Made by a program: the position numbers and the translations under genes
Notes under the pieces: model-generated
The model's database searches: none
What the model was told of the DNA's origin: nothing
What the model saw: only the letters and a program-made list of their open reading frames with translations
In this document: in pieces, positions 22,979 to 27,804 of the stretch
How the letters are laid out: every line of letters starts with the position of its first letter
Position numbering within the stretch: position 1 is the first letter of the stretch
Assembly (NCBI GenBank): GCA_021775595.1
Contig: JAJFHN010000042.1
Location: forward strand, 1 to 39,536
Reading direction: 5' to 3'
From: Hyphomicrobiales bacterium
GTDB lineage: Bacteria > Pseudomonadota > Alphaproteobacteria > Rhizobiales > Methyloligellaceae
DNA length: 39,536 nucleotides

Positions 22979-23835
22979 GTGGCGGTCCCGAGACTGACCG
23001 CCTGCCGCAATTCCAAGTCTATCGGGCCGTAGCTGCAGCACTCGATGAAGACCTGGGACAGGCGGGGGATATCACCACCCAAGCCACCATCGACGCCGAC
23101 GCGACGGCCACGGCCGTGATAATGGCGCGCCAAGCCGGCCGTATCGCAGGTATTCAATTCGCCGAAGCTGCCTTCAAGACGTTCGATCACGGCGCCCGCT
23201 TCGAGGAAACGGCGGGCGATGGCATGTTGGTCGAACCTGGGGAGCCGGTTGCGCGCATCGAGGGCAATGCGCGCGCGCTTCTAACCGGCGAACGGGTTGC
23301 GCTGAACTATCTCTGTCACCTCAGCGGCATCGCAAGCCTGACGCACCGCTACATGGAAAAAATCGCCGGCACCGGCGCGCAGGTTTGCTGCACGCGCAAG
23401 ACGACGCCGCACCTTCGCGCCTTCGAAAAATATGCCGTTCGCATGGGCGGCGGCGCCAATCACCGCTTCACTCTTTCTGACGCAATATTGATCAAGGACA
23501 ACCACATCGCCGCGGCCGGCGGCATCGGCGAGGCAATCGCACGCGCGCGCGCGTACGCCGGCCACATGATCAAAATTGAAGTGGAAGTGGATTCACTCGA
23601 TCAGCTCGACCAAGCTCTCAAACACGAGATAGATGCGGTCTTGCTCGACAACATGGATGCCGCGACGCTCGCCAAGGCGGTCAAGCGCGCCAAAGGACAC
23701 GCGATTCTGGAGGCTTCAGGCGGTGTGAATTTGGAGACGGTTCGGGCGATTGCCGAGAGTGGGGTCGATCTGATTTCGATCGGCGCCCTGACGCACTCTG
23801 CGCCTACACTGGACCTTGGTCTGGACTGGTCGTAA
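22975..23835 (+). CDS. nadC: Nicotinate-nucleotide pyrophosphorylase (quinolinate phosphoribosyltransferase)
   Basis: Converts quinolinate and PRPP to nicotinate mononucleotide, CO2 and pyrophosphate. At 286 residues it is standard length. Conserved segments: DEDLGQAGDITTQATI near the N-terminus, GERVALNYLCHLSGIASLT, CTRKTTPHLRAFEKYAVRMGGGANHR, LIKDNHI, KIEVEVDSLDQL, VLLDNMD and LEASGGVN. ATG 22975 shares four bases (ATGA) with the nadB stop, so translation is coupled. The last 32 bases overlap the end of the convergent cell wall hydrolase gene. Confidence 0.97.
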   Translation: MSGGPETDRLPQFQVYRAVAAALDEDLGQAGDITTQATIDADATATAVIMARQAGRIAGIQFAEAAFKTFDHGARFEETAGDGMLVEPGEPVARIEGNARALLTGERVALNYLCHLSGIASLTHRYMEKIAGTGAQVCCTRKTTPHLRAFEKYAVRMGGGANHRFTLSDAILIKDNHIAAAGGIGEAIARARAYAGHMIKIEVEVDSLDQLDQALKHEIDAVLLDNMDAATLAKAVKRAKGHAILEASGGVNLETVRAIAESGVDLISIGALTHSAPTLDLGLDWS

Positions 23836-24844
23836 CCGCTTCGGCCTCGCGTATCTGCGGCTGAGGCATGATGTAAAAGATGTGCTGGCCGATCTTCTTG
23901 ATGCGGTTCATGTCGCGGCGCCAGCGCGGTTTCACATAAGTTGCGTGGTAGTGGGTGGCATGGCCGATATCGGTAAGCCACACTTTGCCTTCGGTCACCC
24001 GCTTGGCCAGCGTGTTGGCGAGAGCCCAGAGCCGTTTGTCGCGCGGCACATCGGCTTGGCCATCGCAGGCAAACGAGAACTGACAGCCCTTGCGCTGCCA
24101 CTGACCCTGATAGACGACGCCACAAATCGTGTCGGCATATCTTGTCGTGCGTACCCGATTCATAACCACTTGGGCGACTGCCAGTTGTCCGCGCATCGGT
24201 TCGCCGCGGGCTTCGAAATAAATCGCCGTCGCCAAGCAGCGGCGCTGCCGGGCCTGATATTCATCTTCACTCTCGCCCTGGAAGACAAGACCGCGGGAGA
24301 TCTTCGACGGGCCGCTGTTCTTCAGAATTTGCTCAGGCCGTTCGGCAAGTGCTGCGCGCGCCCGGCTGAACGTATAAGCGGTCGAACCCGCCAAAGACGC
24401 CATCATCAGCGGCGCGCTGATCTGCGCCTGTGCGGTTTGCAGAGCGCTCTCGCGCCGCAGCGAGCCCGTCTTGCGGCGGCGGTTGATCGTGTGTTCTTCC
24501 GCCCCAATCGATCCCGTAATCTCGACATCGAGCGGCGCCAAGGCGGCCATCACGCTGGCTGGCTGTTTGGCGATGCGGCTGGTGCGGATCTTTTCAGCGT
24601 AATGATCGGCGCGCGGTCCCTTGCCCCTCTTGGCAAAGAGCGTCGCGGTCGGACCCGTCGCTTCTAGCGGGCGTTGATCCAGGCCAACACTACGGTGATG
24701 GGCCGAGCCCTCGCCCGACATCAGCAATTCCGCGCGCAGCAGAAAGCTCGACGGATCTGCGGTGATATAACCCAAACCAAAGAGTGGTATCGGCGCGAAT
24801 GCGCCAATCAAGCGCCGAAATCGGCTGGTAAAACGTCGACCCAT
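23804..24844 (-). CDS. Cell wall hydrolase (SleB/CwlJ family)
   Basis: A 346-residue protein with a C-terminal SleB/CwlJ hydrolase domain that would cleave peptidoglycan. The domain starts near residue 200: RRCLATAIYFEARGEPMRGQ with the likely catalytic Glu of the family, VAQVVMNRVRT, CGVVYQ, CQFSFACDG and ATHYHATYVKPRW near its end. The N-terminal 200 residues are low in conserved features: a hydrophobic stretch near residues 10-30 (probably an anchor) and a basic, disordered region. In non-spore-forming alphaproteobacteria these proteins are presumed to act in growth or division. ATG 24844 has AGGA four bases upstream. The upstream region carries a CtrA-type site and a hairpin. Its 3' end overlaps nadC by 32 bases. 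Confidence 0.9.
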   Translation of the reverse strand: MGRRFTSRFRRLIGAFAPIPLFGLGYITADPSSFLLRAELLMSGEGSAHHRSVGLDQRPLEATGPTATLFAKRGKGPRADHYAEKIRTSRIAKQPASVMAALAPLDVEITGSIGAEEHTINRRRKTGSLRRESALQTAQAQISAPLMMASLAGSTAYTFSRARAALAERPEQILKNSGPSKISRGLVFQGESEDEYQARQRRCLATAIYFEARGEPMRGQLAVAQVVMNRVRTTRYADTICGVVYQGQWQRKGCQFSFACDGQADVPRDKRLWALANTLAKRVTEGKVWLTDIGHATHYHATYVKPRWRRDMNRIKKIGQHIFYIMPQPQIREAEAVTTSPDQGPV

Positions 24845-24911
24845 ACGTCCTGCCGTCCAAAATGACCAAATTTTGGAGAAGCGCCGAAGATCGACGAGAC
24901 CAACTTCCCCC

Positions 24912-24945
24912 TGCCCGCACAGGATTTTTTCCTTTTATGCGGGCA
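24912..24945. other. Stem-loop in the leader of the cell wall hydrolase gene
   Basis: Inverted repeat TGCCCGCA (24912-24919) and TGCGGGCA (24938-24945), with an inner pair AGGA / TCCT (24921-24924 and 24930-24933) inside the loop. On the minus strand it lies about 67 bases before the start codon and downstream of the CtrA-type site, so it would be in the 5' leader. No T-run follows on either strand, so it is not a simple terminator. Confidence 0.45.
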
Positions 24946-24984
24946 CTTTCCCAATGGAATTCGGTCAATTAGGCAGGAGAACTC

Positions 24985-24999
24985 TTAACTGAGTCTTAA
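24985..24999. promoter_or_regulatory. CtrA-type box TTAA-N7-TTAA containing a GANTC site
   Basis: TTAA at 24985-24988 and TTAA at 24996-24999, exactly seven bases apart, the consensus spacing for the alphaproteobacterial cell-cycle regulator CtrA. The spacer holds GAGTC (24991-24995), a CcrM methylation target (GANTC). It lies 140 bases upstream of the cell wall hydrolase start and 88 bases past the end of ppdK, so the hydrolase is the likely target. Confidence 0.55.
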
Positions 25000-25086
25000 A
25001 TCCACCCGGTGTGCCCGATTCCCCGTCTGTTGTTATTTCGTCACACTGCAAGGGAAATTTGGGCAAAATGTGGTGCCGCGAGGGCT

Positions 25087-27804
25087 TTATTTAGTGCGTT
25101 TTCCGTCCCTTGCGCGCAACGCCGCCTGGGCTGCGGCGAGACGCGCAATCGGCACCCGAAAGGGCGAGCACGAGATATAGTCGAGCCCTGCCCGCTCAAA
25201 GAAGTCGATCGACTGGGGATCGCCACCATGTTCACCGCACACACCGATCTTCAGTTTCTTTCGAGCCTTACGCCCGCGCGCGACGCCGATGGCGATGAGT
25301 TCACCCACGCCAGCCTCATCCAGCTGGGAAAACGGATCGATTTCCATAATTCCGCGAGCGATATAGTCGTTCATGATGGGCCCTGAATCGTCGCGGCTCA
25401 GTCCCATCGCCGTTTGCGTTAAATCGTTGGTGCCGAAACTGAAAAATTCAGCCGCCTCGGCGATCTCGCCGGCCCGCAGGCAAGCCCGCGGCAATTCGAT
25501 CATCGTGCCGACCTGATAGTCGATCTCAACGCCGCGCTCTTGGGCAACCGCATTTGCAACCGCGTCGATGCGCGCCTTGATGAAATCGAGCTCGCTGCGG
25601 GCTTGCACCAACGGCACCATGATTTCCGGCGTCACCGCGCGCCCGCTAGAGCCCGCCACATCGCACGCCGCCTCGAAGATCGCACGCGCCTGCATGTCGG
25701 TGATCTCGGGATAGCTGATCGCCAACCGGCAGCCGCGATGTCCCAGCATCGGGTTAAATTCCTTGAGCTGGGAAATGCGTTGCTTCAGCGCCTTCTCATC
25801 GACACCCAACGCCTTGGCCGCCTCCGCCACGTCCTCGCCCTCGTTCGGCAGAAACTCGTGCAGCGGCGGATCGAGCAGCCGGATGGTGACGGGCCGCTCC
25901 CCCATGATCTCAAAGATTTCGGCAAAATCGCTGCGCTGCATGGGCAAGAGTTTGGCGAGCGCGTCCCGGCGGCCTTCTTCGCTGGTCGCCAAGATCATTT
26001 CACGCACCGCGACGATGCGCTCGGGTTCGAAAAACATATGTTCCGTGCGGCAGAGCCCAATGCCCTCGGCGCCGAAATCGCGCGCCTGGGTCACGTCGTG
26101 CGGCGTCTCAGCGTTGGCGCGCACTCCCAGACGGCGGGCTTTGTCCGCCCAACCCATCAGGGTCACGAAATCACCGCTGAGCTCGGGTTGGCGCAGCGCC
26201 ACCTCCCCTTTCAGCACCTGGCCGCTGGTGCCATCGACTGTGACGATCTCGCCTTTGGCGATCACCAGACCGTCAACGCTGAGCGTCTGCGCCTCGTGAT
26301 CAATGCGCGCACGCCCGGCCCCCGAAACACAGGGCCGCCCCATGCCGCGCGCCACCACGGCCGCGTGCGATGTCATGCCGCCACGCGTTGTGAGGATGCC
26401 CTGGGCTGCATGCATGCCATGAATGTCTTCTGGTGAAGTCTCACTGCGCGCCAAGATCACTTTGCGTCCCTGGGCGGCGAGCGCCTCTGCCTCATCGGCG
26501 TCGAATACGATTTCGCCCGTTGCCGCGCCGGGTGAGGCGGGAAGGCCTGTCGTGATCACATGGCGCTGGGCGTCGGGATCGAGCGTGGGATGTAGCAGCT
26601 TGTCGATTTCGCGGGGCTCGATCCGCATCACCGCTTCGCTCTGGCCGATCAGACCCTCACCCACCATGTCAGTGGCGATTTTCAGCGCGGCACCGGTGGT
26701 GCGCTTGCCGGTTCTGGTCTGCAGCATCCAGAGTTTGCCTTCCTGGATGGTGAATTCAACGTCTTGCATATCGCGGAAGCGGGCTTCGAGGTTGTCGCAA
26801 ACCCCGGTCAGCTGCGTAAAGAGTTCTGGCATCAGCGCTTCGAGCGAGGCCGCCTTGTCACCCATTTCAATGCGCGCTTGTTCGCTCAAACTCTGAGGCG
26901 TCCGAATTCCGGCCACGACATCCTCGCCCTGAGCATTGACCAGGAATTCGCCGAATAGGATTTTTTCACCGTTGGAGGGATTGCGCGTGAACGCGACGCC
27001 GGTCGCACTCGTCTCGCCCATATTGCCAAACACCATGGCCTGGATGTTGACCGCCGTTCCCCAATCATCGGGGATGTCGTGCAGGAGTCGATAGGTGACC
27101 GCGCGCGCGGTGTTCCAGGACGAAAAGACCGCGCCGACCGCACCCCAAAGCTGAGCGTGAATGTCCTGTGGAAACGGCTCGTCGAGCTCAGTCTCGACCA
27201 GCTCCTTATAATCCTCGACAACCTCGCGCCAGTCTTCCGCCGACAATTCAGTGTCAGCGCCATAGCCGTTCAGGTTCTTGTAGTTGTCGAGCACGTCCTC
27301 GAACTGGTGATGATCGAGGCCGAGCACCACGCTGCCGTACATCTGGATGAAGCGCCGGTAGCTGTCGAAGGCAAAGCGCGCATCGCCCGAGCGCTGCGCC
27401 AGCCCCTCGCAGGTCGCATCGTTCAGCCCCAAATTGAGTACGGTGTCCATCATGCCGGGCATCGAAGCCCTGCCGCCCGAGCGCACCGATACCAGCAACG
27501 GGCTGGCCTCATCGCCAAATTTCGATCCCGCCACCTTGCCCACAAGCTCGAGCGCCTTTTCCATTTGCGGGCGGAGCTCATCAGGCAGCGCCTTGCCGTT
27601 GGCGAAGTATGCCGTGCAGACCTCCGTCGTGATGGTGAAACCCGGCGGTACGGGCAGCCCGAGATTGGACATCTCTGCAAGATTGGCGCCCTTGCCGCCA
27701 AGCAGCTCACTCAATTCGCTGCGCCCCTCCGCCGCGCCATCGCCAAAGGTGTAGACCCACTTGGCCGCGGTCTTGGAGTTTTTCGATTGCTTGGACCTGC
27801 CCAT
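25087..27804 (-). CDS. ppdK: Pyruvate, phosphate dikinase
   Basis: A 905-residue enzyme interconverting pyruvate + ATP + Pi and phosphoenolpyruvate + AMP + PPi; it supplies PEP for gluconeogenesis or pyruvate for catabolism. Domains in order: N-terminal ATP-grasp (LLGGKGANLAEMSNLGLPVPPGF, then SGGRASMPGMMDTVLNLGLND), the swivelling phosphohistidine domain with TRGGMTSHAAVVARGMG near residue 478 (catalytic His), and the C-terminal PEP/pyruvate barrel with FGTNDLTQTAMGLSRDD and GVCGEHGGDP, including its catalytic Cys. Length and all parts are normal. It starts 12 bases after the glyS stop, in a glyQ-glyS-ppdK order. Confidence 0.97.
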   Translation of the reverse strand: MGRSKQSKNSKTAAKWVYTFGDGAAEGRSELSELLGGKGANLAEMSNLGLPVPPGFTITTEVCTAYFANGKALPDELRPQMEKALELVGKVAGSKFGDEASPLLVSVRSGGRASMPGMMDTVLNLGLNDATCEGLAQRSGDARFAFDSYRRFIQMYGSVVLGLDHHQFEDVLDNYKNLNGYGADTELSAEDWREVVEDYKELVETELDEPFPQDIHAQLWGAVGAVFSSWNTARAVTYRLLHDIPDDWGTAVNIQAMVFGNMGETSATGVAFTRNPSNGEKILFGEFLVNAQGEDVVAGIRTPQSLSEQARIEMGDKAASLEALMPELFTQLTGVCDNLEARFRDMQDVEFTIQEGKLWMLQTRTGKRTTGAALKIATDMVGEGLIGQSEAVMRIEPREIDKLLHPTLDPDAQRHVITTGLPASPGAATGEIVFDADEAEALAAQGRKVILARSETSPEDIHGMHAAQGILTTRGGMTSHAAVVARGMGRPCVSGAGRARIDHEAQTLSVDGLVIAKGEIVTVDGTSGQVLKGEVALRQPELSGDFVTLMGWADKARRLGVRANAETPHDVTQARDFGAEGIGLCRTEHMFFEPERIVAVREMILATSEEGRRDALAKLLPMQRSDFAEIFEIMGERPVTIRLLDPPLHEFLPNEGEDVAEAAKALGVDEKALKQRISQLKEFNPMLGHRGCRLAISYPEITDMQARAIFEAACDVAGSSGRAVTPEIMVPLVQARSELDFIKARIDAVANAVAQERGVEIDYQVGTMIELPRACLRAGEIAEAAEFFSFGTNDLTQTAMGLSRDDSGPIMNDYIARGIMEIDPFSQLDEAGVGELIAIGVARGRKARKKLKIGVCGEHGGDPQSIDFFERAGLDYISCSPFRVPIARLAAAQAALRARDGKRTK

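Follow-up and report, generated by a model that had tools for sequence, protein, structure and literature searches.

The locus described here raises a single question: is a gene for a cell wall hydrolase switched on by CtrA, the cell-cycle master regulator, through a TTAA-N7-TTAA box lying ahead of it? The window, meaning the whole stretch of DNA that was analysed, comprises 39,536 nucleotides from a Hyphomicrobiales bacterium of the family Methyloligellaceae (contig JAJFHN010000042.1). An earlier note on this DNA had suggested that the box gives the hydrolase cell-cycle timing, with the methylation state of a GANTC site in the spacer as a second input. The answer favored here, as judged from sequence, is that the hydrolase promoter is likely bound and activated by CtrA at this box, and that production of the hydrolase is probably tied to a particular stage of the cell cycle.

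The hydrolase gene and the box ahead of it

The hydrolase gene occupies positions 23804 to 24844 of the minus strand and encodes a protein of 346 amino acids, at whose N-terminus a hydrophobic stretch can be seen by eye. The protein matches the Pfam Cell Wall Hydrolase family PF07486, a SleB/CwlJ-type domain, at 97.7 bits (cut-off 27), but reaches only 57.8 bits against the NCBI SleB equivalog TIGR02869, far under the cut-off of 236.5. Because the equivalog cut-off is missed, the protein is described as a hydrolase with a SleB/CwlJ-type domain and is not filed as a spore enzyme; the term "SleB/CwlJ gene" used in the earlier note holds for the domain and not for the equivalog. Going upstream from the hydrolase gene, the next genes are ppdK, which encodes pyruvate phosphate dikinase (25087 to 27804, also on the minus strand; TIGR01828, 1346 bits), and then glyS.

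The CtrA-type box is located at 24985 to 24999, in the 242-base gap between ppdK and the hydrolase gene. Its letters are TTAACTGAGTCTTAA on the plus strand, an exact match to the coordinates first reported for it, and TTAAGACTCAGTTAA on the coding (minus) strand. The box lies 140 bases upstream of the hydrolase ATG, and both read on the minus strand. The earlier observation of an exact TTAA-N7-TTAA box at this distance is thus borne out, as is that of GAGTC within the spacer (24991 to 24995). The motif occurs once in the window, as against a mean of 0.06 occurrences in 100 dinucleotide shuffles; at least one copy appears in 6 of the 100 shuffles, so the box taken alone is only moderately improbable. 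An Rfam scan of the window returned no matches.

The gene order also suits a plainer account, in which the box is there by chance and transcription of the hydrolase runs on from ppdK. The two genes share a strand, 242 bases separate them, and the only terminator-like site in the region 24700 to 25300 lies inside ppdK and occurs at the chance rate. The position of the box is, however, conserved across genera and families, and this account is considered very improbable; a chance box was rejected on the spacing controls, the shuffles, and the footprinting.

Conservation and promoter geometry within the family

The starting set for the comparison of orthologues comprised 60 relatives and the window's own genome; 55 gave a match, and the best 30 places were used as loci. 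Three genomes of the family are without an orthologous locus in the counts: no match was obtained in G022, and the best places included none from G023 or G026. The 48-locus count omits L040, which has an interrupted frame, and L043, which lies at a contig end. L040 was read separately and has the box, which brings the total for genera g1 (the window's genus), g2, g5, and g6 to 11. Conservation and hexamer counts throughout are raw, with the kinship of the genomes ignored.

The box is present in all 11 orthologues of g1, g2, g5, and g6, the window included; two copies are exact, and nine have GTAA as the second half-site. In a 22-locus alignment of the gap between ppdK and the hydrolase gene, the box and a block reading CTTTTCCTGCCTAAT (or similar) are, by eye, the best-kept stretches in these four genera. 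The earlier note had named absence of the box in orthologues as grounds for giving up its proposal; in these genera the box is invariably there. Among the 15 orthologues examined from g3 (13) and g4 (2), none has a box in the 250 nt before the start. In L031, from g4, an exact pair is present farther out, at -266, where ppdK ends; this pair does not align with the box of the window.

Downstream of the box, a -10-like hexamer, CCTAAT (24968 to 24973, minus strand), was recognized from the alignment, the box rows, and an offset test. The hexamer starts 26 nt downstream of the 5' end of the box, and CCTAAT or CCTAAA begins at this same offset in all 11 orthologues. If this hexamer is the -10 element, the 5' end of the box falls at about -38, and the box would cover -38 to -24, the -35 position included. 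A sigma-70 consensus scan of 24700 to 25300 found no promoter; the proposed -10 is based on conservation rather than on that scan.

Among 47 non-redundant boxes, 17 have a -10-like hexamer (4-of-6 rule) at offset 26. In a control covering offsets 15 to 43, offset 16 also gives 17/47, which is attributed to the GGTTAAT of a variant form of the site (described below), and every other offset gives at most 5. The window's genome contains 22 other perfect boxes outside one aberrant contig, C36. None of these has CCTAAT at +26, and just two have a hexamer there under the 4-of-6 rule (both CATAGT); the geometry is therefore not established for the regulon at large. The composite pattern in its entirety (box, TTTT, GCCTAAT) turned up in a single genome of 297, at the hydrolase gene of a g2 genome, and is absent from the window's own genome. 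This pattern is judged too strict.

The same geometry bears on the direction of control. Were the true start elsewhere, CtrA might instead switch the hydrolase off; in Caulobacter, sites for CtrA located at -10 or -14 are interpreted as repressing (PMC4287350). Against such repression, a hexamer fixed at +26 in four genera favors the position of an activator, and a repressing role for CtrA here is regarded as distinctly unlikely.

The hydrolase mRNA would start near 24961, as placed from the proposed -10, and would have a 5' leader of about 117 nt (24845 to 24961, minus strand) with predicted stem-loops. The fold of 24845 to 24962 has a z-score of -2.02, and 7 of 200 shuffles are equally good, which is a modest result; the consensus fold of 10 leaders shows little covariation (3 of 18 pairs changed on both sides). 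The leader stem GGGGAAG...CTTCTCC has a counterpart in g2, GGGGAAGTC...GCCTTCCC. Tandem units resembling ATTGGGTA...GCTCGG are found in the leaders of L021, L022, and L023, right before the hydrolase start, and a single copy of this unit is present in the other g2 sequences that were read.

Boxes, regulators, and GANTC sites in the genome

Genome-wide, there are 146 TTAA pairs with spacers of 2 to 14, of which 29 have a spacer of 7. Contig C36 accounts for 81 of the 146 and shows no preference for a spacer of 7 (6/81). This contig of 63 kb (L046 to L049) has a GC content of 35%, as against 61% for the window, and carries the genome's second PF07486-type match; it probably reflects an error in binning, or else DNA that is mobile or of foreign origin. 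Outside C36 there are 23 N7 pairs versus 42 for the other 12 spacings combined (about 3.5 each), an excess with a Poisson P of about 4e-12 on the assumption that all spacings are equally likely. According to simple, crude ORF calls, 21 of the 23 N7 boxes outside C36 are intergenic.

The genes beside the other boxes were scanned against Pfam. The scan covered 30 genes beside 21 of the 22 boxes (L058 was left out, and L002 shares the genes of L001), and some of these neighbors point toward their box, not away from it. A Pfam family was matched by 19 of the 30. FlgI and FliX flank one box; the others include a flagellar rod protein, three bactofilins, a class A PBP, and two YkuD transpeptidases, one of them barely above the cut-off. 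Two outer-membrane barrels, a GGDEF protein, and a housekeeping-type sigma-70 factor are also encoded beside boxes, and the neighbors that are neither envelope nor flagellar genes include a patatin, a TetR protein, a DUF463 protein, an endonuclease/exonuclease/phosphatase, an amino-acid dehydrogenase, and a GT87 protein. The perfect boxes at L001/L002 and L056 precede the three bactofilin genes; two boxes lie 67 bases apart at one gene, and one box lies between a divergent pair. The sigma factor gene rpoD has a CtrA motif in S. meliloti and is bound by CtrA in Brucella, as stated in the available part of PMC3616915.

CtrA is encoded in this genome (equivalog NF045991, 426.9 bits, cut-off 350) and is 93% identical to Caulobacter CtrA. 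GcrA is also encoded, with a Pfam score of 189.7 bits (above the cut-off) and an NCBIfam score of 176.8 bits against a 280-bit cut-off; CcrM was judged by its RAMA domain only (65 bits, cut-off 35.2). No box with up to one mismatch is found within 450 nt upstream of ctrA.

Among the nearest counterparts are the CtrA-full promoters of Caulobacter, whose boxes start near -35 (at -39 in ctrA P2) and act as activators following CtrA levels (PMC4287350, in the portion available). The hydrolase promoter resembles them in its motif and spacing, in its proposed position over -35, in the presence of an encoded CtrA, and in the flagellar and envelope genes that neighbor other boxes. It differs in that the target is a PF07486 hydrolase and in that no box is found in the 450 nt before the organism's own ctrA.

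The CtrA reading is thus supported by the box in 11/11 orthologues of four genera and in 19 of 23 other families (see below), by the N7 enrichment, by the encoded CtrA, and by the position proposed at -38 beside a conserved hexamer. Phosphorylated CtrA would bind the box at about -38 to -24 and would recruit the housekeeping RNA polymerase to the CCTAAT -10. Expression of the hydrolase would then coincide with the phase of CtrA activity in the cell cycle, with its transcription uncoupled from the upstream metabolic gene ppdK. Binding by CtrA, its role as an activator and not a repressor, the position of the start, and the timing are our inferences; since a CtrA-type box is kept ahead of the hydrolase in many relatives, cell-cycle-timed expression is probable. 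Among the papers listed for CtrA or CwlJ and cell wall hydrolases, no report of CtrA control of this hydrolase was seen, and supplementary CtrA target tables may list it; no word beginning with "hydrolase" occurs in the main texts of two CtrA regulon papers (PMC4433202, PMC7200025).

The GANTC site in the spacer, of the type methylated by CcrM, lies at 24991 to 24995, or -34 to -30 by the proposed start, and its plus-strand context TGAGTCT fits YGAKTCK, the form hypothesized to be needed for activation by GcrA (PMC7987155, in the part available). A second GANTC of the intergenic region is found at 25017 to 25021, 17 bases upstream of the box. In the family alignment, GANTC sites that differ in the middle base line up with this second one in g5, in a single g2 sequence (L023), and in 6 of the 10 g3 sequences included, although g3 is without the CtrA box. 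These aligned counterparts are suggestive only.

The spacer GANTC may let GcrA and CcrM modulate the promoter in the window's lineage. In a stronger form of this proposal, CtrA control is joined by a real second input, with GcrA and sigma-70 acting on the site in its methylated state or in the hemi-methylated state left behind by the replication fork. In its favor, the genome encodes GcrA and a RAMA domain of the CcrM type, the window has fewer GANTC sites than expected (65 versus 183), and the site at -34 to -30 has the YGAKTCK form. There is also precedent: in Caulobacter, the promoter inside CCNA_00876 shows equal relative placing, its CtrA motif lying at -39 and its GANTC at -35, and differs in belonging to another gene and in having a degenerate CtrA motif, TTAC-N7-TTCA (PMC4287350). 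In the available part of PMC7987155, the Brevundimonas sciP promoter similarly has CtrA and GANTC/GcrA sites together, and there CtrA is needed and GcrA alone is insufficient.

The distribution of the site argues the other way. The spacer GANTC is present in 8 of the 11 boxes of g1, g2, g5, and g6 (of the three without it, two are one base off and one is two bases off), and the g6 copy does not fit YGAKTCK. It is found in 9 of 70 box rows, all in the family and two of them duplicates of other rows, and in no box row outside the family; it is likewise absent from all of the genome's other perfect boxes outside C36 (0/22). With 8/11 in four genera and none outside the family, a methylation input is lineage-specific at best, and the spacer GANTC is not a conserved part of the promoter element. 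The second input suggested by the earlier note therefore retains its regulators and its precedent, but conservation does not favor it as a core input; that methylation acts here as a genuine second input is rather unlikely.

The element across the order

Conservation of the CtrA-type box extends beyond the family. For the wider comparison, 31 genomes of the same order were reduced to 23, one for each of 23 other families (five had no match; G033, G055, and G060 were left out). An N7 pair with up to one mismatch is present in 19/23, as compared with 1-12 for other spacings and a mean of 2.8 (maximum 8) in 300 dinucleotide shuffles. In a named set of 80 loci, nearly all from Hyphomicrobiales, the counts are 45 for N7, 42 for N13, and 39 for N2. 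The high N2 and N13 counts are attributed to TCAAGGTTAA, a sequence with near-TTAA pairs at N2 and N13; because they lie so near the N7 count, the named set alone does not single out N7. Among the 31 named loci with ppdK close upstream, an N7 box is found in 8, N2 in 10, and N13 in 9. All 11 Devosia loci and both Pelagibacterium loci are without the box. The expectation that the motif would be conserved upstream of orthologous hydrolases thus holds for the four genera (11/11) and for 19/23 families, and not for the g3 and g4 orthologues examined (0/15 within 250 nt) or the ppdK-linked named loci (8/31). Outside the order, 18 of 115 genomes of the class matched the hydrolase at E 1e-20, two of the 18 being inside the order, and upstream scans of 22 distant homologues gave two boxes, which is the background rate.

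In boxes from other families, TTAA as the second half-site mostly gives way to TCAA, or to GTAA, ATAA, or TAAA, and in many families of the order the site reads TTAAC-N6-TCAAGGTTAA. This variant is present in 113 of 397 genomes of the order (114 places), as a single copy in 112 of the 113; the reversed pattern, used as a control, gave three matches in total. Written out as the pattern TTAACNNNNNNTCAAGGTTAA, the variant is an element of 21 bases (L194 to L232). In a 61-genome sample of the order, the variant was found in 14 genomes from 13 families, one copy each. The hydrolase gene lies downstream of it in 12 of these 14 (the exceptions are G065 and G037) and in 25 of 30 loci checked from the 114 places; 18 of the 30 come from one family, f44, and one locus that ends before the domain (L207) was scored as a miss. 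The sequence at offset 26 is CATTAT in 18 of these 30 loci, every one of them from f44. Two loci of family f40 (L224 and L228) combine the variant box with CTTAAT or CCTAAT at offset 26 and so link the variant form with the form in the window. Across the order, the variant is an unexpected gene-dedicated element.

One copy per genome is unusual for the target of a global regulator, so another or an additional factor may read the variant. Carried to its end, this suggests a regulator other than CtrA, for which the order-wide element would be the dedicated operator of the hydrolase gene, CtrA-like only in the window's lineage. For a CtrA site, many copies per genome would be expected; the variant occurs once in 112/113, and the hydrolase gene follows it in most of the sampled and checked loci (12/14 and 25/30). 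Direct control of such a gene by another response regulator is described in the available part of PMC7240162, in which RSP_1860 of Rhodobacter sphaeroides, a CwlJ-like wall hydrolase, is a direct target of NtrX; RSP_1860 is likened to the window's gene as a CwlJ-like hydrolase only. The TGA-N8-TGA motif of CenR (PMC9275681, part available) is, by eye, unlike the family alignment. In the window's own genome, exact TTAA-N7-TTAA is strongly over-represented, with many copies by flagellar and envelope genes, which speaks against a different regulator at this promoter, and we consider one improbable.

Activation by CtrA therefore remains the preferred reading for the window, and it may be set in a broader evolutionary history that we offer tentatively. 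The hydrolase promoter could be an old gene-dedicated element of the order whose core is kept (TTAA, seven bases, a second half-site, and a -10 at +26). In much of the order, this element might have become the once-per-genome TTAAC-N6-TCAAGGTTAA, whose reader would be either a second factor by itself or that factor acting jointly with CtrA. The pure CtrA form, supplemented by a GANTC, would be that of the window's lineage, and the box would have disappeared from relatives of the Methyloceanibacter type.

Hyphomicrobiales are known for budding. The order is known also for polar growth, as noted in the available part of PMC7327166. Wall hydrolases need timing, or else cells lyse. The promoters described here form a natural series (pure CtrA, CtrA with GANTC, the TCAAGGTTAA variant, and lost) for dissecting CtrA input, methylation input, and rewiring. 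Retention of a CtrA-type promoter before a single PF07486 hydrolase in many Hyphomicrobiales families would link wall cutting directly to the master regulator of the cell cycle.
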